Virus record (IMG/VR): IMGVR_UViG_3300032893_000073
Span: 1-49,460 of that record
DNA length: 49,460 bases
Origin: a virus
Reading direction: 5' to 3' (one strand)
Part shown: piece by piece, positions 2,081 to 43,075 of the stretch
Position numbering within the stretch: the stretch's first letter is position 1
Layout: the number at the start of each line of letters is the position of its first letter
The notes under the pieces: generated by a model
What the model was told of the DNA's origin: nothing
Databases searched by the model: none
Seen by the model: the letters and a program-made list of their open reading frames with translations, nothing else
Translations under genes and position numbers: made by a program

Positions 2081-3208
2081 TTACTGCTCAGCAGTGATGG
2101 TGAATTCATCAACCACTACGTCAGCAGCGCCAGTTGAAGTAGGCAAGTTTAGTTGCATATTCAACGCGTTGGTTTCCGTTTCTGCGGCAGTCGTGCTCAA
2201 GCTGTTTGCTAAAGCAGCGTTTGCATAAGCAGCTACGCTGATTTGTTGAGCACTGGCACCCGTGCGATAAATCAGGATATCAGCCCAGAAATCTTTACCG
2301 GAGCCGGTTGAGAGCGGCAGGGTAATTGTGACCGGTGTGGCGCCCCATTTAAAGTTGCAAGCCTTGGTGTTACCGTTGGCGGCAGTCGTGCCGTGAATCT
2401 TTACTCGAAGCCCTTGCCCAGTCGTGGTTAACGTGCTGGCCGGAAGCGAGTAGGTTGTATTTACTGCACCGCCTGTCGAAGACGAGGAGGTAGCCGAAAG
2501 GCTGAACAATCTACCGGATGGATTATAGGTAGCCGTGCTGCCCATTGTCGAGAGTACAGCGCCCTTGGCGAATGTCTTGATACCGGATACAGACTGAGCC
2601 GCACCAGTGTCTACGATATTATCAGAGGCTGCACCGGGGTCCGGCAACTGGAATGCAGTGGCTTGTCCAAGCGAGCTGATGACTGAGAGCGTGCCATTAA
2701 AGCTGGTGCCTGTCAGAATCAGCGAAGGCGCCGTGATGGCGTTGCTGAAAATCCAGGTGCCTGCGATTGTGGGATTGCCGTGGTCAAGCAGGAAATTGGC
2801 GTTGGCCCCGGCGTCAGGAATGGTGTAAAGCCGCGCGTAAGGCGTCCCTGTACCGCTAGGAGTCGTCCAATTGATATATGTGTCAAGATTGTCCGTCGGC
2901 TTCTTTCCGTAAGGACGCAAGACGATGGACGGGATGTTTGACCAAATAGCAATTGGGCTTGCCAACCCGGACCAATTGGCAGGGTCTTGGACAGTTTGAT
3001 TGCCGCCAAAGATTGCCTGGTTAGGGAAACGGAAGTTTCCTTTCACTCTTGTTTCCGGTATGGTGCCGGGATAACTGGATTGGGTCGATTGCCCCGAATT
3101 GGAAGCCTCGCCCGGTGCGGTATTGCCGCTAGTGTTCTGAGCCATAGCGGCAGGCGAACCTACCGCTATGCAAGCCAGAACCATCAAAGACGCAAGAATG
3201 CGCTTCAT
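2081..3208 (-). CDS. fibre-like virion protein with Sec signal peptide
   Basis: A 375-residue protein starting at ATG 3206-3208 behind AGGGGG. Residues 1-23 form a clear signal peptide (basic MKR, hydrophobic core, cleavage after AMA before Q). The rest is Ser/Thr/Ala/Gly rich and beta-like. It shares modules with the 814-residue fibre at 44184-46628: GQATA-x-Q-x-PDPG, TIAGTW-x-FSNA and AQS-x-x-G-x-KT. Fibre or decoration function is inferred from composition, the shared modules and location directly after the coat gene. A Sec signal on a protein in the virion operon is unusual, because virions assemble in the cytoplasm. Confidence 0.65.
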   Translation of the reverse strand: MKRILASLMVLACIAVGSPAAMAQNTSGNTAPGEASNSGQSTQSSYPGTIPETRVKGNFRFPNQAIFGGNQTVQDPANWSGLASPIAIWSNIPSIVLRPYGKKPTDNLDTYINWTTPSGTGTPYARLYTIPDAGANANFLLDHGNPTIAGTWIFSNAITAPSLILTGTSFNGTLSVISSLGQATAFQLPDPGAASDNIVDTGAAQSVSGIKTFAKGAVLSTMGSTATYNPSGRLFSLSATSSSSTGGAVNTTYSLPASTLTTTGQGLRVKIHGTTAANGNTKACNFKWGATPVTITLPLSTGSGKDFWADILIYRTGASAQQISVAAYANAALANSLSTTAAETETNALNMQLNLPTSTGAADVVVDEFTITAEQ

Positions 3209-22050: not shown

Positions 22051-22106
22051 TCGAATGGTGGGATGTACTCGTTTGGGTATTCGAGAAGCACGAAGGGGGA
22101 TTATAA
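21981..22106 (+). CDS. 41-residue micro-gene with strong ribosome site
   Basis: ATG 21981 follows AAGGAG at ideal spacing; TAA ends two nt before the GTG of the RNA ligase gene. It encodes MEEKFREEGREKQTFWQKVK and then an aromatic, hydrophobic stretch (VIEWWDVLVWVF), an amphipathic or weak membrane helix. The ribosome site and exact fit to the ligase start argue that it is expressed and may couple to the ligase. Function unknown. Confidence 0.6.
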   Translation: MEEKFREEGREKQTFWQKVKTFVIEWWDVLVWVFEKHEGGL

Positions 22107-22107
22107 A

Positions 22108-23232
22108 GTGTCAACTCTCAAAGCGGAAGTGGTCACAATTGACCGCGTAAAGAAACATCCGAATGCAGACCGGCTCGATTGCGTAATCGTTAAAGGTTGG
22201 AATGTGGTGGCAGGCAGAGATGACCCAAGCACACCGCGTTACAAGCAGGGTGACAAGTGTTTGTACATACCGATTGATTCGGTGTTGCCAGAACCGCTTG
22301 AAACGTTGTTGTTTCCGCCTGATGGCAAAATCAAATTGAGCAAAAGCAGGATAAAAACAATCAAACTGCGCGGCGCCGTGTCGCAGGGAATGATTACTGA
22401 TTTAGAGGGGCTAGAAGCACTATACCCTGGTATCAGTTTAGCCAAAGTTGGCGACGATTTGACGGAGGAATTGGGCATCATTAAGTACGAGCCGCCTGTT
22501 GAAGACGTGCCGCAGCACATGCAGGCGAAAAATGCACAGCATTTGAAGAATCCAAACTTCCGCAAGTACACCGATATCGAGAATTTCAAGAATCACAACC
22601 GCCTATTTGAAGACGGCGAGATGGTTTACATCACAGAGAAGCTGCATGGCACTAGCGCGCGCTATGCAATGCTTGAGACGATGACAAATCGCTGGTGGAA
22701 GAAGGTGCTCAAATTTTTTGGACTCTTACCGAAGTACGAATTCTGCTACGGCAGCAGAAATGTGCAGCTTCAGGGTCCAGGCAAGAAGAAATTCTACTAC
22801 GACGAGAACGTTTACGCCAAAATTGCGAAGCAATTGCGCCTAGACGAAGTGTTGCAGCCAGGCGAAGCGCTGTTTGGTGAGATTGTTGGTAGTGGAATTC
22901 AGAAAGGTTACACCTATGGATGTGCAGAAGGCGAGCATCGTTTCTATGCTTACGACGTGAATATCGATGGGCGGTGGTTACCTGCGCAAGAGTTCATGGA
23001 ATGGTGTGATTCTCGCGGTATTGAACGCGTGCCATTCATTAGCATTTGCGAATACAACGAGCAATTCGTGCGTGCGACGGCGAAAGGACCAAGCGCAATC
23101 GGCAACCAGCCGGTGCGCGAGGGTATCGTTATCAAAGCGGCCGCAGAGGAGAACTGCTACATCGGGCGGAAGGTGCTCAAGTTGATTAACGAGGATTACG
23201 AGCTGGCGAAAGACAACACGGAGTTTCATTAA
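22108..23232 (+). CDS. RNA ligase, DraRnl (DRB0094) type
   Basis: GTG 22108 behind GGGGGA (7-nt spacing) gives 374 residues; an ATG at 22063 lacks such a site. The N-terminal ~125 residues match the OB-like domain of this family (KAEVVTIDRVKKHPNADRLD). The nucleotidyltransferase core has motif I EKLHG with catalytic K178, motif III EFCYGSRN (211-218), motif IV ALFGEIVG (254-261) and motif V REGIVIKA with KVLKLIN (338-361). The family seals RNA 3-OH ends in nicked duplexes. Repair of cleaved tRNA or mRNA is inferred; no kinase/phosphatase partner is visible. Confidence 0.9.
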   Translation: MSTLKAEVVTIDRVKKHPNADRLDCVIVKGWNVVAGRDDPSTPRYKQGDKCLYIPIDSVLPEPLETLLFPPDGKIKLSKSRIKTIKLRGAVSQGMITDLEGLEALYPGISLAKVGDDLTEELGIIKYEPPVEDVPQHMQAKNAQHLKNPNFRKYTDIENFKNHNRLFEDGEMVYITEKLHGTSARYAMLETMTNRWWKKVLKFFGLLPKYEFCYGSRNVQLQGPGKKKFYYDENVYAKIAKQLRLDEVLQPGEALFGEIVGSGIQKGYTYGCAEGEHRFYAYDVNIDGRWLPAQEFMEWCDSRGIERVPFISICEYNEQFVRATAKGPSAIGNQPVREGIVIKAAAEENCYIGRKVLKLINEDYELAKDNTEFH

Positions 23233-26744: not shown

Positions 26745-27276
26745 TTGCCGTACCTCCGAAAGTTATGCACCTAGAATAACTCATCTCGATTTAATGCGCT
26801 AGAGCCTATACAGAGATTTTTGCACATTCTACCTTAAATGTGTCTCCACCATTTTTGACGCATTCACCTATAAAGGTACGTTTCGGCTGCTCATTGCTGC
26901 CGTTGAAGCCCTAAAGGCGCCCTGCGAAGCAAAGGGCGCTCTAATAGGGCGGTTTCAAAGCGTAGAATATATCTACTACTACCTCTTTTAGCTAAATATA
27001 TGGCGCATTTCAATTTTTCAGACATTTAATCTGCCGTTAGAACCCTCTGCCACTGCCCTTGGTGCCATTTGAATATCTACCGTGATACCTTGCGGTCGAA
27101 AAATTCTCAGATTATCATTCACAGCTAGTCGAATCCACAAGCGCCTGCCTCCCTGCTTGCCTTCGGCAGCGGGTGGTAAGGCGCAAGCAACCTAAAGAGA
27201 AGGCTTACCTTCTCCCCAAGGTCGAAGGTAAAATTCCGGGGAACCGGTGTAACTACGTGAGCTATATATTCAAAAG
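26745..27276. other. hairpin-rich divergent intergenic region
   Basis: About 530 nt between divergent units. A nested hairpin spans 26908-26950: outer GCCCTA/TAGGGC, inner GGCGCCCT/AGGGCGCT, loop 9 nt. TTACCTT/AAGGTAA forms another stem near 27205-27231, next to a GC-rich stem around 27150-27180. An AT-rich stretch with TAAATATATGG lies around 26995. A TATATT at 27265-27270 sits seven nt before ATG 27277. Promoters for both directions are expected here, but only the hairpins and the palindrome at 26823 are clear. Confidence 0.5.
26823..26842 (-). promoter_or_regulatory. palindrome overlapping a -10-like hexamer
   Basis: CACATT (26823-26828) and AATGTG (26837-26842) are a perfect 6-bp inverted repeat with 8 nt between. 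On the minus strand TAGAAT (26831-26826) overlaps it and points to the 388-residue gene; no good -35 is seen. The AAATGTGT core is shared with the operators at 36234-36251 and 41796-41827, so it may be a third site for the same repressor (weaker than those two). Confidence 0.4.
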
Positions 27277-27480: not shown

Positions 27481-27712
27481 AATAGAAAAGGAGATTTATC
27501 CCGAAAAGCTTACTGCTAAATGGGAAGCGGAGCATCAATTCAAAACTGCTAAATTCATTCGAGCAATAGAACTTGCTCGGGAAGCTGGTGCCACCACGCA
27601 AGCTGATTTGCTTGATTCCGTTCGCTTCATCATAGAAGCCGGTGTTCATCCGACTTACGCTGTTCAAATAATCACTCACATCAATAATCCAGCGGAGGAT
27701 TTTGGTTCATGA
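27473..27712 (+). CDS. small helical protein with C-terminal EDFGS tail
   Basis: A 79-residue protein, acidic N-terminus, helical throughout, ending NNPAEDFGS. The last five residues match the E/D-rich FGS tails of the 84- and 165-residue proteins encoded at 35938 and 36449. It overlaps the next gene by ATGA. No domain recognised. Confidence 0.65.
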   Translation: MAEIEKEIYPEKLTAKWEAEHQFKTAKFIRAIELAREAGATTQADLLDSVRFIIEAGVHPTYAVQIITHINNPAEDFGS

Positions 27713-29955: not shown

Positions 29956-29990
29956 AAAGAACGCCTCTGCCGCACACAGAGGCGTTCTTT
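29956..29990. terminator. strong bidirectional intrinsic terminator
   Basis: AAAGAACGCCTCTG and CAGAGGCGTTCTTT form a perfect 14-bp stem with a 7-nt loop and A/T-rich ends on both sides. It stands between the plus-strand cluster (ending 29925) and the minus-strand tRNA region, so it can stop transcription from either direction. Confidence 0.9.
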
Positions 29991-30211: not shown

Positions 30212-30288
30212 TGGTTGCGGGTGACAGATTTGAACTGTCGGCCTGAAGGTTATGACTCTCCTGCTCTGCCGGACTGAGCTAACCCGCG
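30212..30288 (-). tRNA. tRNA-Met(CAU), initiator-like
   Basis: A 77-nt cloverleaf: acceptor CGCGGGT/ACCCGCA with six pairs and a C1-A72 mismatch, D-stem GCTC/GAGC, anticodon loop GTCATAA (CAU), T-arm GACAG-TTCAAAT-CTGTC, A73 and an encoded CCA. The C1-A72 mismatch is the hallmark of bacterial initiator tRNA and blocks use in elongation. Against full initiator identity, the anticodon stem lacks the three G-C pairs and has an A31-C39 mismatch. An elongator Met or lysidine-modified Ile tRNA are alternatives. Confidence 0.85.
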
Positions 30289-30664: not shown

Positions 30665-30737
30665 CTGTAGCGCTTGGGTTTGAACCAAGGACTTCCGAGT
30701 TAACAGCTCGGCACTCTACCAACTGAGTTACGCTACA
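30665..30737 (-). tRNA. tRNA-Asn(GUU)
   Basis: A 73-nt complete cloverleaf: acceptor TGTAGCG/CGCTACA fully paired, D-arm ACTC/GAGT with GG in the loop, anticodon stem CCGAG/CTCGG with loop CTGTTAA (GUU), T-arm CTTGG-TTCAAAC-CCAAG, discriminator G73. CCA is not encoded. Its first ten bases overlap the end of the upstream protein gene, whose TAA stop lies at tRNA positions 8-10. Confidence 0.95.
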
Positions 30738-36221: not shown

Positions 36222-36251
36222 ATCATACAGTGTTAGACACATTTCTGTCTA
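36222..36251 (-). promoter_or_regulatory. promoter with palindromic operator
   Basis: On the minus strand: -35 TAGACA (36251-36246), 18-nt spacer, -10 TATGAT (36227-36222), each 5 of 6 with consensus, start expected near 36214, ATG at 36192. The -35 is half of a perfect inverted repeat, TAGACA (36234-36239) / TGTCTA (36246-36251). Its core GAAATGTGT recurs in the operator at 41796-41827. It should drive the RHH-like gene, the SNF2 helicase and ssb. Confidence 0.7.
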
Positions 36252-36452
36252 GTGCGATGGCATTCTTTTAAGGTAATAGGGCGAATCGGGATTATTGCGG
36301 TTGTCCCGAATGAGCTTCTCTTCTATGGCCCGTTTAATGTAATCGTTCCGGCGCAGTCTGGCCTGTTTGCAGGCAGGGTCCAAGGTGTCCTCGACATAGC
36401 CGGGGTCAAAATAGACGCTCACGCATTTGGTTTGTACTCTACCTGGCTTCAT
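36249..36452 (-). CDS. ribbon-helix-helix-like protein
   Basis: A 67-residue protein. CVSVYFDPGYVEDTLDPACK followed by an Arg-rich helix (ARLRRNDYIKRAIEEKL) fits the Arc/CopG-type fold. ATGA-coupled to the 165-residue gene upstream. Its stop codon lies within the palindrome at 36234-36251, which could be its own or a shared operator (inference). Confidence 0.6.
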   Translation of the reverse strand: MKPGRVQTKCVSVYFDPGYVEDTLDPACKQARLRRNDYIKRAIEEKLIRDNRNNPDSPYYLKRMPSH

Positions 36453-36946
36453 GAGCCGAATTCCTCCTCTAAATCGCTACCAAATTCCATTTCGGTATCA
36501 TTTACGATACCAGTATCCGCTACCACCATTCCATACGCCTTGGTTGAAATCTCAAAGCATTCACTAAACCATTCAAAGAACATAGGGTCGCGCGGTTCTG
36601 CGCTATATTGCGTCAGGTTCGCCACCAGCCCGTCGAAATATTCTTGCAGTTTGCCCTCGGACTGCTTCTGCTTCATGCGATCGATTTCGCCATCTAGCGT
36701 CCATACTGGGAGGGTGCGTACACTACCTCCTGTTTCCTTGCGGCGATAGACGCGTCTGCCGCCTTCTAAATCGACAATCTCATGCGGTGGTAGCTTTTGC
36801 ACTTTCTCAATCCTCCTTTTCAGATATTCTCGCTTGATGACGGACATTAGTTCTGGAAACCTTTCTCCGAGAGTCTTTAAGAAAACCCTGTTGTCCGTTT
36901 TGCATGCCGCTTCTATCCACGGCAACCATTTTACGGTGCTTTCCAC
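36449..36946 (-). CDS. unknown protein with double EFGS C-terminal tail
   Basis: A 165-residue protein, helical and basic in the first 100 residues, with an acidic tail that reads EMEFGSDLEEEFGS to the stop. The tandem motif matches the tails of the 79- and 84-residue proteins and the N-terminus of the 461-residue protein. It lies just after the DnaB-like helicase gene (16-nt overlap). Possibly a helicase partner or loader by position (speculative). Confidence 0.6.
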   Translation of the reverse strand: MESTVKWLPWIEAACKTDNRVFLKTLGERFPELMSVIKREYLKRRIEKVQKLPPHEIVDLEGGRRVYRRKETGGSVRTLPVWTLDGEIDRMKQKQSEGKLQEYFDGLVANLTQYSAEPRDPMFFEWFSECFEISTKAYGMVVADTGIVNDTEMEFGSDLEEEFGS

Positions 36947-38328
36947 GGTGTCACCATGGATTTCCTGTAGTGGTGAATCACCTCAAAGGAGGCGCGCTCA
37001 GCACCATCACGCCCCTTACCGATGTCTATATGCACTGGCGTCTCGCCGCGCATCTTTAAAGCTTCTTTGATTTGCTTGAGCAGCTTTGCGGCTTCACTCT
37101 TGTTGTTTGGGGGTTCCACACAGCGAGCAATAAGACCGCCGTTGTTGATATCGTAATAACCGAGCAGCTCATTGTCATTCCACTCCGCAAGAGTAATTAT
37201 ACAGTCAGCACGCATCACAATGCGATTGCTGCCTTTTACGTTGGCATTACTGCCACGCACCTCGGCGGCACTCTTGGTGCTCTCGGTGATAACCAGTGTG
37301 GGTCCGTTGCTGGCGTTAGCGAGCTTCTTCACTTCGTCAATGAGAAAGTCGTCGATTTCCAGAGCGCGCTTCTCTGGTGGCACCGGCATAAGCTGCATGA
37401 AATCAATAAGGGTAACTATCTGCTCACATTTGCTGGCGTTGAGCAGTGATGCCTGTTCGCGAATGATGTTGTGACGCGAAGCATTTGTAAAGTTGTCTTC
37501 GTCGAGAATGCGAATACGGTGTGCTAATTTTTCGAGCGAAGTAAATCCAGTTTCGACTCTGCGCTTCTCTTCAGGCGTCCATCCTTCGGTGGTACTACCA
37601 GATTGAACGATGCGAATCGGCAGACCTACGCAGCCCGTGAGCAATCTATCTTGAATGCGCCACTTCTTCATGTCCAGGGAGACTATAAGAACACAAGCAT
37701 CTTCGTAGCGCTCAAGAATATCGCGCACCACCTGTAGTGCCAATGTTGTTTTGCCACCACCGCTCTTAGCGGTCATCAATGTTAAACCCTGCAAACCCCC
37801 AGTAGCTTCATCAAGAGCAGGAATAGTGCCCTGTGTAAGCCCGAGAAATTGTTTGCCCTGCATTGCTGCAAGACGGCTTCGCATTTGTGACAACTCATCC
37901 GAGAGTGAACATATAGGCTCGCTGGCACGCTCGGATAGAATGTTATCTGCAACTCTGAGAGCATCGCTGAATGCTTCTCGTGCGGAATCCCCCGACAATC
38001 CGTTGTCCACGATGAACCCGATTGCATCATTGATAGCCTCTCTGTATTTTTCTTGGCGCTCGCGCTGCTCCCACGCCTCCCAGGCGTCATAAATATACTC
38101 TTCGTCCTCATCTACCAGTCGCGCCAGCTCTGGAATGAAGTACCGCTTGATGAACAAGCTGTGCGCTCGCGGCTGCCCAACTTCCCAGCGCAAACCACGA
38201 TGCAGAAGGTCATCTTTGCCAGCGGGCAACGCCAAATCGCAGCCTTGGGCAAGAGTATCGAGATGCTCGTGCGCCCAATTAACCCACGCCTCGCGTCCGT
38301 CATAGATGTGCGGTGCGTTAATCGCCAT
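36931..38328 (-). CDS. DnaB-like replicative helicase (RecA-fold)
   Basis: A 465-residue protein. The N-terminal 140 residues are helical; the ATPase domain has Walker A AKSGGGKTT (187-195), an Asp-ended strand LIVSLDM (about 214-220), Walker B VTLIDFMQLM (D309) and a downstream GSNANVKGSNRI DNA-loop-like region. This fits the DnaB C-terminal domain family, which unwinds DNA as a hexamer at the fork. The N-terminal domain is not obviously DnaB-like and no primase fusion is present. Confidence 0.85.
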   Translation of the reverse strand: MAINAPHIYDGREAWVNWAHEHLDTLAQGCDLALPAGKDDLLHRGLRWEVGQPRAHSLFIKRYFIPELARLVDEDEEYIYDAWEAWEQRERQEKYREAINDAIGFIVDNGLSGDSAREAFSDALRVADNILSERASEPICSLSDELSQMRSRLAAMQGKQFLGLTQGTIPALDEATGGLQGLTLMTAKSGGGKTTLALQVVRDILERYEDACVLIVSLDMKKWRIQDRLLTGCVGLPIRIVQSGSTTEGWTPEEKRRVETGFTSLEKLAHRIRILDEDNFTNASRHNIIREQASLLNASKCEQIVTLIDFMQLMPVPPEKRALEIDDFLIDEVKKLANASNGPTLVITESTKSAAEVRGSNANVKGSNRIVMRADCIITLAEWNDNELLGYYDINNGGLIARCVEPPNNKSEAAKLLKQIKEALKMRGETPVHIDIGKGRDGAERASFEVIHHYRKSMVTPWKAP

Positions 38329-38819
38329 CAGTACGTTCCTTCGCTGGAATAATTACTTGCGTTATAGTCGAGAAAATCATGGGCGTCGAGGGCGTAGAAT
38401 CGCACCCAAACAAATTCCTCTCCTTTCTCGACTGCGATTTCGCATTTGCTAACGTATCCTCGAATAAGGCTATCATTTGCAAGAGCGGCGCCTTGTCCAG
38501 TGAGCCTGTCGCAATGTTGAAGTCCATCCCAAATCGCCTTCTCTAAATTATCTATGTCTGCTCGATTCTTATGGACTCCAAATATCACTCGGGCTGCAAC
38601 CGGGAAGGTAATGGTCTTCCGCCCTTTCATCATGTCGCTGGCTGTAACGGTGCCAACATACGCTTCCCAGTTGCGAGTTTTTTCCGGTGTTGAGTGATGA
38701 GAACCATGCGTGCGCTCTTTGCCGTGAGGACGAATAGCGATGAACAAATCCAACACCTCGCGATGTTCTTTCGGTTCTGCCGCTTTCATATATTGGTCAA
38801 AGAGGTGGCGCGCTTTCAC
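38328..38819 (-). CDS. RusA-like Holliday-junction resolvase
   Basis: A 163-residue protein, GTG start (TAGTG overlap). RADIDNLEKAIWDGL (86-100) and NDSLIRGY (115-122) supply the conserved acidic residues D88, D90, D98 and D116 of the RusA fold; RPHGKERTHG and the HSTPEKTRNWE stretch upstream also fit. RusA dimers cut four-way junctions. It sits among recombination genes and next to the helicase. Confidence 0.85.
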   Translation of the reverse strand: MKARHLFDQYMKAAEPKEHREVLDLFIAIRPHGKERTHGSHHSTPEKTRNWEAYVGTVTASDMMKGRKTITFPVAARVIFGVHKNRADIDNLEKAIWDGLQHCDRLTGQGAALANDSLIRGYVSKCEIAVEKGEEFVWVRFYALDAHDFLDYNASNYSSEGTY

Positions 38820-39184
38820 TACTTAATGAGGCTCCCCAGTATGTTGCCTAGCCCCGAGCTACCGCATTGTCCAAGCGGAATCAACCAAGTGCTATTTGGA
38901 TGACTATCACTCAGCGCACGACGGTCTGGGGCCTGCGGATAAGAAGGCTTTTGACAGACCATCGTGACGGTGCTGCCGTCTGGTTGAACCCATTCGTAGT
39001 ACCAATGCGTGATTTTACCCGGCTTCAGTTTCAGCCACTTCCAACTGCGCTTGTCTCTGTCCGTCTTCACTAGACCCGAGAGATGCGCAACTGGGTTTAG
39101 GTTCCCGGTTGACTCCTGAGCAGCAACCGGCATTGCCGAGAGTAGTGTCGCCAGGCTCAACGCCAGCAGTATCCTTTTGTTCAT
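38819..39184 (-). CDS. exported small protein
   Basis: A 121-residue protein, ATG 39182-39184 with GGA about 12 nt upstream. Residues 1-22 are a signal peptide (MNKRILLALSLATLLSAMPV, cleavage after VAA before Q). The mature part contains KWLKLKPGKITHWYYEWVQ and two Cys (one near C83, another near C107) that could form a disulfide. Its first 170 nt overlap the gene upstream. Secreted or periplasmic; role unknown. Confidence 0.65.
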   Translation of the reverse strand: MNKRILLALSLATLLSAMPVAAQESTGNLNPVAHLSGLVKTDRDKRSWKWLKLKPGKITHWYYEWVQPDGSTVTMVCQKPSYPQAPDRRALSDSHPNSTWLIPLGQCGSSGLGNILGSLIK

Positions 39185-39410
39185 TTTTCAATTTCCTTTC
39201 AATTTCGGGCAGTTTTTCAATCATCGTGGCAATTGGTGATTCGTCGTCAAACGTATCCTCGTCTTCTTCGAGAAATACTGCGACCGTGCTATCCATGTTT
39301 TCGGAGGTAGGTAGCGCATGATTGTGCATGCATGCCGCCCCGAGTGCGAAGAAATAGAGCGCGAGCCGTTGAGTTGTGCTCAAATCCTTCTGCTGTCTGA
39401 GTGTTTTCAT
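39015..39410 (-). CDS. membrane-anchored or soluble small protein, overlapping the next gene
   Basis: A 131-residue ORF behind GGGAG, ATG 39408-39410 (ATGA with the upstream gene). Residues 18-30 (LALYFFALGAACM) are a short hydrophobic stretch; residues 45-80 are acidic, then helical (MIEKLPEIERKLKNEQKD). The last ~55 residues are in the overlap with the exported gene and look low-complexity. Nested pairs like this recall Rz/Rz1 spanins, but the downstream protein has no lipobox. Confidence 0.5.
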   Translation of the reverse strand: MKTLRQQKDLSTTQRLALYFFALGAACMHNHALPTSENMDSTVAVFLEEDEDTFDDESPIATMIEKLPEIERKLKNEQKDTAGVEPGDTTLGNAGCCSGVNREPKPSCASLGSSEDGQRQAQLEVAETEAG

Positions 39411-40792
39411 TTTATCTCCCTTGTTTTGAGTGGATTTGGTTTTACATCTTCCCAGCCTGGCGGCAGGAATTTTGTCGCAATACTTTTATCGAAATCAGCC
39501 GTTGTTTTGAGAGTGACACCGGCTTGCTCCTTAATAGCCGCCATCTGTTCCGCATCGCCCGCTTCTTTGAGCGCGAGCAATTCATTCTTGCGCTCCTCTA
39601 GCCACGCGAAAAATACAGGCGGATTAACGCATGTCGGACCACCGCTATCGCCGCGCCACGAAATAGAGCCGCTGGCAAAGTCGAGCGATTTCTTACTGAA
39701 GTCGCCTTTCTTATGCGGGTCTTTCGTTCCTTCTTTGCTGTCAGACTGGTAGCGTGGCAGTCTGCCATCTTTGCCGGTGCCATCACCTTCGGCATATTTA
39801 TCGAGCAGGGCGCCGAAAGCATCGTCCCAGAGCTTCGCTTTCTGCTCTAGTGGCTTGGCGCGCTTCTCGGCTTGTTCACGATAGCGTTTCGCCGGGTCGA
39901 TGAAACGCGTATGCATCAAGTCGAGAATTTCGTCCACCTGCTCCTTGGTCAATTCCTGCGGCAGCTCGGGCCAACCGAGTGCCTCAAGGAAATAGCCACG
40001 AGTTACCACCGCTCCCGTCTCTGGGTCAACTAGGCGATTAAGCACCTCATCCCAGTGGAGCGCCTTTGGGGTAGATGGCGAGGATGGAGCAGATACAGCC
40101 GGAATGGAGGGCGTGCCAGTAGCCGTGGCTGCATTGCCAGACTCCCCCGAGCCGAATTCCTCCTCCGGTTCTGGATTAGCACGCTTATTCACCTCAGCCA
40201 AGACGGCATTAACCGTTTCGTGGGTCAGCTCTTTAAAGCCAAGTTCGTCGAAGATGATATTGCCGTCCATGCCGCACTTCTTCGCGTGTTCGAGGATATG
40301 CGGCCAGCGTTCTTCGGGCGTTGGACCAGGATGCGCTGCTTTGTATTCTTCCTCGGCTTTAACCTTGGCTGCTATTTCTAGCGCCTTCTTACTACTGCGT
40401 CTGGTAGTTTTCTCGGGTTTCTGCGCCGCGTGGAATTTCGCCAGATTCTGATTCATCTCAAAATAGGCTTCGTCGCTGATGCCACCAAGGGCGCCGAGCT
40501 GCTTTTGAAATTCATCCTTGTTGCCGTAGGCTTCAAAGAATGCCTTGGACAATTCAGTCCATTGCCTTTCCGTTTTGGACGCAGTGTTGAATTTCGCAAG
40601 CTGTTCTTCTGCTGCTTTCTTGGCGCTGCGCAGCGCGGTCTGTTCTTCGGGGTCCATCGTCGCCGCAATTTGCTTGGTCAGTTCTTCAACCAAGGTTTTC
40701 AATGCCACCGGATCATCTTCTATGCGCGGCGATACCACCGGTGGTGCATCTGCGCCGAATTCAACATCGGCGCCAAATTCCATTTCGCTCAT
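39407..40792 (-). CDS. unknown protein with repeated EFG motifs
   Basis: A 461-residue protein. The N-terminus reads MSEMEFGADVEFGAD; EPEEEFGSGES appears near residue 217; HWDEVLNRL near residue 248 matches the W-D-x-V-L-N motif of two other proteins. Long charged helical segments (30-160) and a Trp/Pro-rich C-terminus surround these. It follows the putative annealing protein gene by one nt, so it is in the recombination module. A scaffold holding several partners would fit the motif repeats (inference). Confidence 0.6.
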   Translation of the reverse strand: MSEMEFGADVEFGADAPPVVSPRIEDDPVALKTLVEELTKQIAATMDPEEQTALRSAKKAAEEQLAKFNTASKTERQWTELSKAFFEAYGNKDEFQKQLGALGGISDEAYFEMNQNLAKFHAAQKPEKTTRRSSKKALEIAAKVKAEEEYKAAHPGPTPEERWPHILEHAKKCGMDGNIIFDELGFKELTHETVNAVLAEVNKRANPEPEEEFGSGESGNAATATGTPSIPAVSAPSSPSTPKALHWDEVLNRLVDPETGAVVTRGYFLEALGWPELPQELTKEQVDEILDLMHTRFIDPAKRYREQAEKRAKPLEQKAKLWDDAFGALLDKYAEGDGTGKDGRLPRYQSDSKEGTKDPHKKGDFSKKSLDFASGSISWRGDSGGPTCVNPPVFFAWLEERKNELLALKEAGDAEQMAAIKEQAGVTLKTTADFDKSIATKFLPPGWEDVKPNPLKTREIK

Positions 40793-40793
40793 G

Positions 40794-41765
40794 TTACCTC
40801 CCTGCGTTTGTCAAAGCGAGGTCAACGCTCTGCATAATGCGAGAGAAGACATCGAGAGTGAGCGTCTTTGTTCGATTCTCGTTGGTGACATCAAACGATT
40901 CTTTGAGGAATTGGTTCATTTGCGGACCCGTCCAGCCGCACAATTCCTTGCAGCCGTACACGATGAATTTCATGTGTTCGGCGTCTGCAACGATAGCAGT
41001 TTCATCACCGACAAACAGCTCGGCATGCTCGGCGAAGCGGCGCGGACAGTTAGAAGGCAAAGCAGGTACAGGTGGTTCCACCGCAGTCGGGGCAGGTACG
41101 GCCGGAGGGGTTCCAACGGCTTGCTTTGGGGCTTCACTCGGCTTCGAGTCCTTCGCCGCAGGCGATGCAGAAGCGGAGGCAGGCTTTGCCGCCACCTCTG
41201 TAGCCGATTGCCCATTGGTGCTCGCAGGCTTTGGGGATTCGTCACCCAAGTCAACGCGCGTCGCGCCCTCGACATCATCAACTTCTGAATCATCAAGGAA
41301 GGCAAGCCCACAGATTTCTAAGGTCGCTCTGCGCTTCGCTTTCGTCTCGGCGTGCATTATCTTGTTCGCCTGCATTTCTGGGGTCATTGGGTATTTGCCC
41401 CCCTGGAGCGTGCAAGCGCCAACCGCGTCCACTTCCCTGCCTGTATCCAAATCACGGGCGGTGTAGGTATACACAGCGCGCTCTGAATTGATATTCTCTT
41501 TGGACTGCTTCAATGAAATCTTGTGTTTGCGGCCAAGCTCTACTGATGTTTGCCTGGAAGCATAGGGGATTTCTTTGACAACCTCATCACTGTTCTTTGC
41601 TTTCTGTTGAATCATTCCGATGGTGCCGAAAGGCAGACCGGCACGCTTATTCAGGTAGGACAAGTAGGTGAGCTTATCTTTCATGGCCCATGTGTGCATG
41701 GTGCTTTCGACGGTGAAGCGCGCATGCAACTTCATCTCGTCTGCTGTCGGTGTGTATTCTTCCAT
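40794..41765 (-). CDS. putative single-strand annealing / recombination protein
   Basis: A 323-residue protein. The core (residues 1-165) ends in MHAETKAKRRATLEICGLAF followed by LDDSEVDD, a pattern common in phage recombinase-type (Erf/RecT-like) proteins; the C-terminal half has a Pro/Ala linker (about 175-235) and a helical end. It is first in the recombination/replication operon, under the promoter at 41815-41844, and upstream of RusA, DnaB-like helicase and SSB. The annealing role is tentative. Confidence 0.5.
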   Translation of the reverse strand: MEEYTPTADEMKLHARFTVESTMHTWAMKDKLTYLSYLNKRAGLPFGTIGMIQQKAKNSDEVVKEIPYASRQTSVELGRKHKISLKQSKENINSERAVYTYTARDLDTGREVDAVGACTLQGGKYPMTPEMQANKIMHAETKAKRRATLEICGLAFLDDSEVDDVEGATRVDLGDESPKPASTNGQSATEVAAKPASASASPAAKDSKPSEAPKQAVGTPPAVPAPTAVEPPVPALPSNCPRRFAEHAELFVGDETAIVADAEHMKFIVYGCKELCGWTGPQMNQFLKESFDVTNENRTKTLTLDVFSRIMQSVDLALTNAGR

Positions 41766-41795
41766 TTGGTTATGCTCCTTGCATATACGATAGAA

Positions 41796-41844
41796 ATAGG
41801 GCTAACACATTTCTATGTTAGCCCTATCGCAGAATCTCTGTCAA
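41796..41844 (-). promoter_or_regulatory. replication-operon promoter with 12-bp palindromic operator
   Basis: On the minus strand: -35 TTGACA (41844-41839, 6 of 6), 18-nt spacer, -10 TAACAT (41820-41815, 4 of 6). A perfect 12-bp inverted repeat, ATAGGGCTAACA (41796-41807) / TGTTAGCCCTAT (41816-41827), covers the -10. The core AGAAATGTGT is shared with the palindrome at 36234-36251. A bound repressor would block transcription of the recombination operon. It could also form an mRNA hairpin, but lacks a T-run. Confidence 0.7.
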
Positions 41845-41860: not shown

Positions 41861-42091
41861 TTAATCTGGCTTCTTCGGGAGGCGCTTAAGCACGCCGGTC
41901 AGACGGTCGCGAGCAATTGAGTATATCGTGCTGCCGTAAGGAAGCAAGATGATAGTTAGCATCCATTGGTCAGGTACAAAGTGTATGCCGTGCGCAGCTT
42001 GCCACATAGCAAATAGCCATGTTCCAAGAGCCATAACCGGTGGAACATAGTCGTTTGGGTTTAACTTGCGCTCATCTTCGGTATCCGGCAT
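41861..42091 (-). CDS. holin-like membrane protein
   Basis: A 76-residue protein with a charged N-terminus (1-14), two hydrophobic segments (VPPVMALGTWLFAMW and WMLTIILLPYGSTIY) and a basic C-terminus (KRLPKKPD). This is holin-like, in a cassette with an endolysin and spanin-like gene. It is the last gene of the lysis cassette, six nt after the 31-residue membrane ORF. Confidence 0.65.
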   Translation of the reverse strand: MPDTEDERKLNPNDYVPPVMALGTWLFAMWQAAHGIHFVPDQWMLTIILLPYGSTIYSIARDRLTGVLKRLPKKPD

Positions 42092-42589: not shown

Positions 42590-43075
42590 CTAGGCTACCG
42601 CTTGATTGAACAAGGCAATTTCATTTGCACGACGATGGACCAAACCGTCAATGACGGCGCCGTGGTCGTCGTGCACCCAACGCTTCATTTCGTTTGGTAT
42701 AAGTAGGAGTTTGCCGCTTTCAATATCGCGGCACGCACTCGAGCCTTTCCAGGCACCAATGCCAATATTGAAGATGAATGCCACCAGTGCATCAAACTGA
42801 TTCTGATTGAGCTTGCATTCTGCTATCTTCAGAGTATCATTGAGTGCATTGGTGAATCGCTGCTGGTCTTTCTCGAAGAGAGCGACTGCTTCTGCTACCG
42901 TGAGGACGGGATGTATGCGCGTATAGAATTGAATTTCTTCTGGAAGTATCTTGTGTCCGAAACCAATCGTGAGCTTTCCCGCTGCGCAGTGATACGCAGA
43001 CAGTCTCAAACCCTCTGCGTTCTCTATGAATTTCTTTCCTTTATCCGAAAGCACCACGACGCGCCTGAACCTCAC
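42590..43075 (-). CDS. endolysin, T4-type lysozyme (GH24)
   Basis: A 161-residue protein, GTG start at 43073-43075 overlapping the TGA of the upstream gene. EGLRLSAYHCAAGKLTIGFG (21-40) has the GH24 catalytic pattern E-x8-C-x5-T (E21, C30, T36), the E-C-T variant in which Cys replaces Asp. NQFDALVAFIFNIG is also typical. It hydrolyses peptidoglycan glycan strands. No signal peptide, so a holin is expected to release it. Confidence 0.9.
   Translation of the reverse strand: MRFRRVVVLSDKGKKFIENAEGLRLSAYHCAAGKLTIGFGHKILPEEIQFYTRIHPVLTVAEAVALFEKDQQRFTNALNDTLKIAECKLNQNQFDALVAFIFNIGIGAWKGSSACRDIESGKLLLIPNEMKRWVHDDHGAVIDGLVHRRANEIALFNQAVA

Follow-up and report, generated by a model that had tools for sequence, protein, structure and literature searches.

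An operator-like inverted repeat conserved upstream of phage replication genes, with a probable second copy of its half-site at another promoter

Genomic context of the locus

Whether symmetric sequences lying on two promoter-like sequences act as operators for a shared regulator is the question raised by the replication region of a 49.5-kb IMG/VR phage (IMGVR_UViG_3300032893_000073; the window is the whole record of 49,460 nt). The locus is of interest as a short candidate control site for replication genes, in a phage group for which no close relative in culture turned up in the collections searched; apart from this candidate site the picture is one of ordinary phage gene control, and the analysis below shows which part of an earlier proposed regulon survives. 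Most genes are carried on the minus strand, including those for structural proteins, lysis and replication, and the order on that strand runs from the lysis genes through a gene for a 323-aa protein into a replication module of a RusA-like resolvase, a DnaB-like helicase, two small proteins, a SNF2 helicase and SSB. No lysogeny module was recognisable among the genes searched. The first site lies within the 95-bp gap from 41861 to 41765, and the second between the genes for a 67-aa and an 84-aa protein. The features of the first region are:

42590-43075, minus strand: phage lysozyme, a lysis gene
41861-42091, minus strand: small, possibly membrane protein, among the lysis genes
41844-41815, minus strand: promoter-like sequence P1, TTGACA-N18-TAACAT, with its -10 box inside the 5' arm of site 1
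41796..41827: site 1, a perfect inverted repeat, ATAGGGCTAACA / CATTTCTA / TGTTAGCCCTAT, with 12-bp arms and an 8-nt spacer
41792..41808, minus strand: 17-bp motif GTGTTAGCCCTATTTCT, which begins at the predicted transcription start and overlaps site 1 in its 3' half
40794..41765, minus strand: 323-aa protein, the first gene after site 1, opening the replication/recombination module

Site 1 is a repeat far beyond chance: in the window, only site 1 and a repeat at 29956-29990 have perfect arms of 11 bp or longer, and 10 first-order Markov shuffles gave none. It stands 30 nt upstream of the 323-aa gene and overlaps P1, which has a weight-matrix score of 12.2 (at scores of at least 12, 0.8 matches per window are expected and 4 were found). 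P1 and the second promoter-like sequence, P2, were recovered where the initial annotation had placed them, and are the only sequences between 30000 and 49460 to match 10 of the 12 promoter positions. A recombination function for the 323-aa protein is unproven, no family match having been found in Pfam, PHROG or NCBIfam; a 36% match over ~130 aa was obtained to an unannotated protein of Campylobacter phages.

Conservation of site 1 in a related phage

Searches of IMG/VR with the portal and capsid proteins returned one close relative, IMGVR_UViG_3300020057_000004 (48.3 kb; G001, with coordinates given on L007 to L009), which was reached via the portal protein and is the sole relative on which all statements of conservation rest. 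Searches of IMG/VR with the 323-aa protein, the SNF2 helicase, the DnaB-like helicase and the terminase, and of genome_contigs with the capsid, returned no relatives, and the matches among cultured phages were distant only. The relative has the same gene order as the window, with protein identities ranging from 88% (capsid) down to about 30% and lying mostly at 30-50%; the two 323-aa orthologues are 43-50% identical. Its DnaB-like gene is divided between the two ends of the contig, which is therefore probably circularly permuted.

Upstream of the 323-aa orthologue, the relative carries a site 1 of the form TGGGCTAACA / TGAACAG (7 nt) / TGTTAGCCCA, followed by ATTTCTA (L007:4505-4531), together with its own copy of the 17-bp motif, GTGTTAGCCCAATTTCT (L007:4499-4515, minus strand). 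The two upstream regions align at GGGCTAACAT.GAA..GTGTTAGCCC.ATTTCTA with a score of 22.5 (z 13.6), where none of 500 shuffles exceeded 12.5, and this is the highest score among 13 orthologous upstream regions, the next (19.0) coming from within the preceding coding sequence. The conserved block ends 25 nt before the ATG in the window and 24 nt before it in the relative. Within it, the spacer measures 8 nt in the window and 7 nt in the relative with no conservation of its letters, and the outermost pair of the conserved stem is A-T in the one and T-A in the other, while the arms are unchanged and the flanking intergenic DNA has diverged. That the arms persist amid diverged flanks and proteins of mostly 30-50% identity indicates that the letters themselves are under selection. 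The arm sequence is present in a single copy in each genome.

Promoter-like matches occur at both positions in both phages. The best match within 200 nt upstream of the relative's 323-aa orthologue is TAGCAA-17-TAACAT, which is weak (7.95) and at the position of P1, such that the overlap of repeat and promoter falls in the same place in the two genomes. The counterpart of P2 is TTGCAA-N18-TAGAAT (L009:6947-6918, score 11.0), also at the same position.

Searches beyond this pair of genomes added little. The pattern GGGCTAACA-N6..9-TGTTAGCCC was found in IMG/VR in the relative and in two other sequences, for a chance expectation of about 2-3 that rests on an assumed collection size; both of the others were rejected, one (L003) being a palindrome followed by a T run inside an ORF and the other (L013) lying in an unrelated phage and not being terminator-like. 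A looser pattern in genome_contigs returned two copies of one AT-rich intergenic hairpin from Clostridia MAGs, likewise rejected. The literature search returned nothing relevant.

A probable second copy of the half-site at promoter P2

The features of the second region are:

36249..36452, minus strand: 67-aa protein, weakly ribbon-helix-helix (RHH)-like, conserved in the relative
36251-36222, minus strand: promoter-like sequence P2, TAGACA-N18-TATGAT, weight-matrix score 10.5
36234..36251: 6-bp inverted repeat, TAGACA / CATTTC / TGTCTA, ordinary by count
36230..36246, plus strand: site 2, 17-bp motif GTGTTAGACACATTTCT, filling the P2 spacer in the orientation opposite to P2
35938..36192, minus strand: 84-aa protein, the first gene after P2

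The initial annotation described a perfect repeat on each promoter, which holds for site 1 with its 12-bp arms; the repeat at site 2 is one of 211 perfect repeats in the window with arms of at least 6 bp and spacers of 0-12, and is indistinguishable from the rest. The same is true of the third palindrome proposed earlier, at 26823-26842 (CACATT-N8-AATGTG), which has 6-bp arms, has only AAATGTGT in common with the others and is at chance level. The P2 score is also unremarkable across the genome, with 14 matches of at least 10 found against 18 expected.

What links the two sites is their sequence. The common core reported earlier, GAAATGTGT, is exact and occurs only twice in the window, at sites 1 and 2, in a register which takes in the site 1 spacer that is not conserved in the relative. 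A longer motif that had been missed, GTGTTAG-N-C-N-N-ATTTCT, likewise occurs exactly twice in the window, on the minus strand at 41792-41808 and on the plus strand at 36230-36246, and explains why ATTTCT, which lies beyond the palindrome, is conserved. Because the shared 10-mer overlaps this motif, the one observation does not count independently of the other; the new element is GTGTTAG, a 7-bp match at a fixed spacing. Allowing up to 2 mismatches gave no third site in the window (mean 0.28 expected; at least 2 in 5 of 100 shuffles). A fairer test is a consensus of the two site-1 copies only: the best other match in the window is then site 2, with 3 of 17 mismatches, where 0.03 are expected per genome (2 in 60 shuffles), and it remains the sole other window site at up to 4 mismatches. 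Conversely, site 2 finds its best match in the whole relative at that phage's site 1, in the opposite orientation.

In the relative, the 17-bp motif occurs only once, at site 1, and P2 bears neither the motif nor the 6-bp repeat, which suggests that the second site is lineage-specific; conservation thus extends to site 1 and not to site 2 in the one relative available. This absence is also what lends some substance to the possibility that function is confined to site 1, with site 2 resembling it by coincidence and P2 being an ordinary promoter. A 6-bp repeat is common, and a shared 9-mer is seen in 1-2% and a shared 10-mer in 0.3-0.8% of random window pairs, the values for 45-bp intergenic windows being about 2% and 0.8%, respectively. 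Against coincidence, the second-best genome match to the site 1 consensus, of which 0.03 are expected, falls inside a promoter. We regard coincidence at site 2 as possible, though the less probable outcome. The earlier notion that both promoters carry related sites of a protein-binding type is strengthened by the 17-bp motif, by the conservation of site 1 and by promoter-like matches at both positions in both phages: site 1 is a real, conserved operator-like element, probably with a second copy at P2.

Operator model and candidate regulators

The reading that best fits the conserved letters, their symmetry, their overlap with the -10 and start region and the reappearance of the motif in reverse orientation at another promoter is that site 1 is a DNA operator at P1, with a second copy of its main half-site at P2, and on this sequence evidence we lean towards it, if only just. 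A sequence-specific protein would bind the inverted repeat over the P1 -10 box and start point and would thereby keep the module that begins with the 323-aa gene from being transcribed; since the main half-site, GTGTTAG-N-C-N-N-ATTTCT, recurs in the P2 spacer, the same protein would probably also damp P2 in this phage. The opposite orientations of the motif relative to P1 and P2 fit DNA binding and not one shared RNA element. Counting against an operator are the weak P1 match in the relative, the single copy of the motif there and its absence from P2, the reliance on one close relative, and the change of spacer from 8 to 7 nt, which is awkward for a rigid dimer.

Phage repressor operators overlap early promoters, as in lambda OR/OL and the P22 Arc/Mnt operators. 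The locus resembles these in having a symmetric site on the -10 and start region, small candidate DNA-binding proteins encoded nearby and related sites at more than one early or replication promoter. It differs in that the second site has only a single half-site set in another local repeat, that the relative carries just one such site, and that no lysogeny module was recognised in the genes searched.

Both genes flanking site 2 had been put forward as RHH-like, of which the 67-aa protein retains a weak case and the 84-aa protein does not. For the 67-aa protein, converging but weak Arc/CopG-like matches came from the relative's copy only (PHROG transcriptional repressor E=0.009, CopG-like 0.13, Arc-like 0.18); there was no Pfam match, and an AlphaFold monomer was of low confidence and gave no useful Foldseek match. 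The first 50 residues of the 84-aa protein are 30% identical to a protein of the relative, with no RHH family match in sequence or monomer-model searches, although a monomer model is poorly suited to judging RHH proteins, whose dimers are intertwined. We infer protein binding at the sites, repression by that binding and, where it is supposed, a phage-encoded protein; the 67-aa protein is one candidate only, and a host protein is equally possible as the regulator. The RHH-driven regulon of three sites under a single repressor is not established, given the chance-level third palindrome, the relative's P2 without the motif and the arm found once per genome.

Several small genes of each phage encode a recurring C-terminal peptide, E-[ED]-F-G-[SV] (window gene ends at 27712, 35938 and 36449, and also 39407-40792; homologues on L009 and L007). 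These C-terminal copies fall on a gene-junction sequence that is itself repeated, GAGGA..TTTGG..ATGA, comprising a Shine-Dalgarno sequence and an overlapping start; in a 461-aa protein the peptide is internal and near the N-terminus, where the junction sequence does not explain it.

Site 1 as a possible RNA element or recombination site

The main rival at site 1, and a serious one in view of a strong coding-strand fold, a one-base change in spacer and one pair changed on both sides, is that the element acts at the RNA level. Transcripts arriving from the lysis and tail genes upstream would meet a strong hairpin (with a GAAA loop in the window) before the 323-aa gene, serving as a weak or regulated terminator, a processing site or a protein-binding leader. 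The coding strand folds at -22.5 kcal/mol in the window and -17.6 in the relative, against -17.9 and -15.1 for the other strand, with z-scores of -5.4 and -4.7 in the two phages; the outermost pair is A-U in one phage and U-A in the other, a U-G pair lies inside, the spacer length of an RNA hairpin is free to vary, and site 1 sits at the boundary of late and early genes. Like the intrinsic terminators between phage operons, site 1 is a stable hairpin in a codirectional gap after lysis genes. It is unlike them in its poor T tract in both phages and its conserved arm letters: it lacks a G+C-rich stem with a T run behind it, and its terminator d-scores (-8.9 to +3.5 for full or near-full stems in the window, -25 in the relative) are lower than those of hairpins at the plus-strand gene end (8.5 in the window, up to 50 in the relative). 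Further, an RNA begun at P1 (about 41808) would be without the 5' arm, there is almost no change in the letters of the stem, and the motif at site 2, antisense to P2, is left unexplained. A purely RNA role is on this evidence unlikely. Rfam gave weak sub-threshold matches at site 1 (SdsR_RyeB, 26.4 bits against a cut-off of 38), explained by the hairpin and rejected.

Less probable still is a composite element, an operator at P1 which also forms a hairpin at the late/early boundary when late transcripts read through; here an undescribed regulator would read GTGTTAG-N4-ATTTCT, and one lineage would have recruited the motif to a second promoter inside the module.

It is very improbable that site 1 serves in recombination or replication (as a loxP/FRT-like site, loxP and FRT being tyrosine-recombinase core sites, or as an origin hairpin), for which the geometry of 12-bp arms and an 8-bp asymmetric spacer and the single copy per genome speak, and against which stand the 7-nt spacer of the relative, the absence of a recombinase among the genes searched (part of the gene set), the absence of a G+C-skew break at the site, the position on a promoter and the conserved distance to the ATG.

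Other features of the two genomes

The perfect repeat at 29956-29990 forms a 14-bp, terminator-like hairpin where the plus-strand genes end, with a counterpart at L008:19561-19596. The window also carries tRNA-Met and tRNA-Asn genes (30212-30288 and 30665-30737, minus strand), separated by 376 nt within an 800-bp convergent intergenic region, and an RNA ligase gene (22063-23232, plus strand; phrog_968, E=7e-70); no tRNA genes were found in the relative, nor a counterpart of the ligase by tblastn. A second conserved intergenic hairpin lies at 2021-2066 on the minus strand, between a 375-aa gene (2081-3208) and the gene at 1160-1999, and at L007 13074-13114, minus strand. A 14-mer, GCCCGGATTCTCCG, is identical in both phages, with differing stems around it (GACAGCCCGC/GCGGGCTGTC versus AGAGGGCTTGC/GCAAGTCCTCT) and fold z-scores of -3.0 and -4.2; the element has no Rfam match and has the look of a structured RNA whose loop is conserved.
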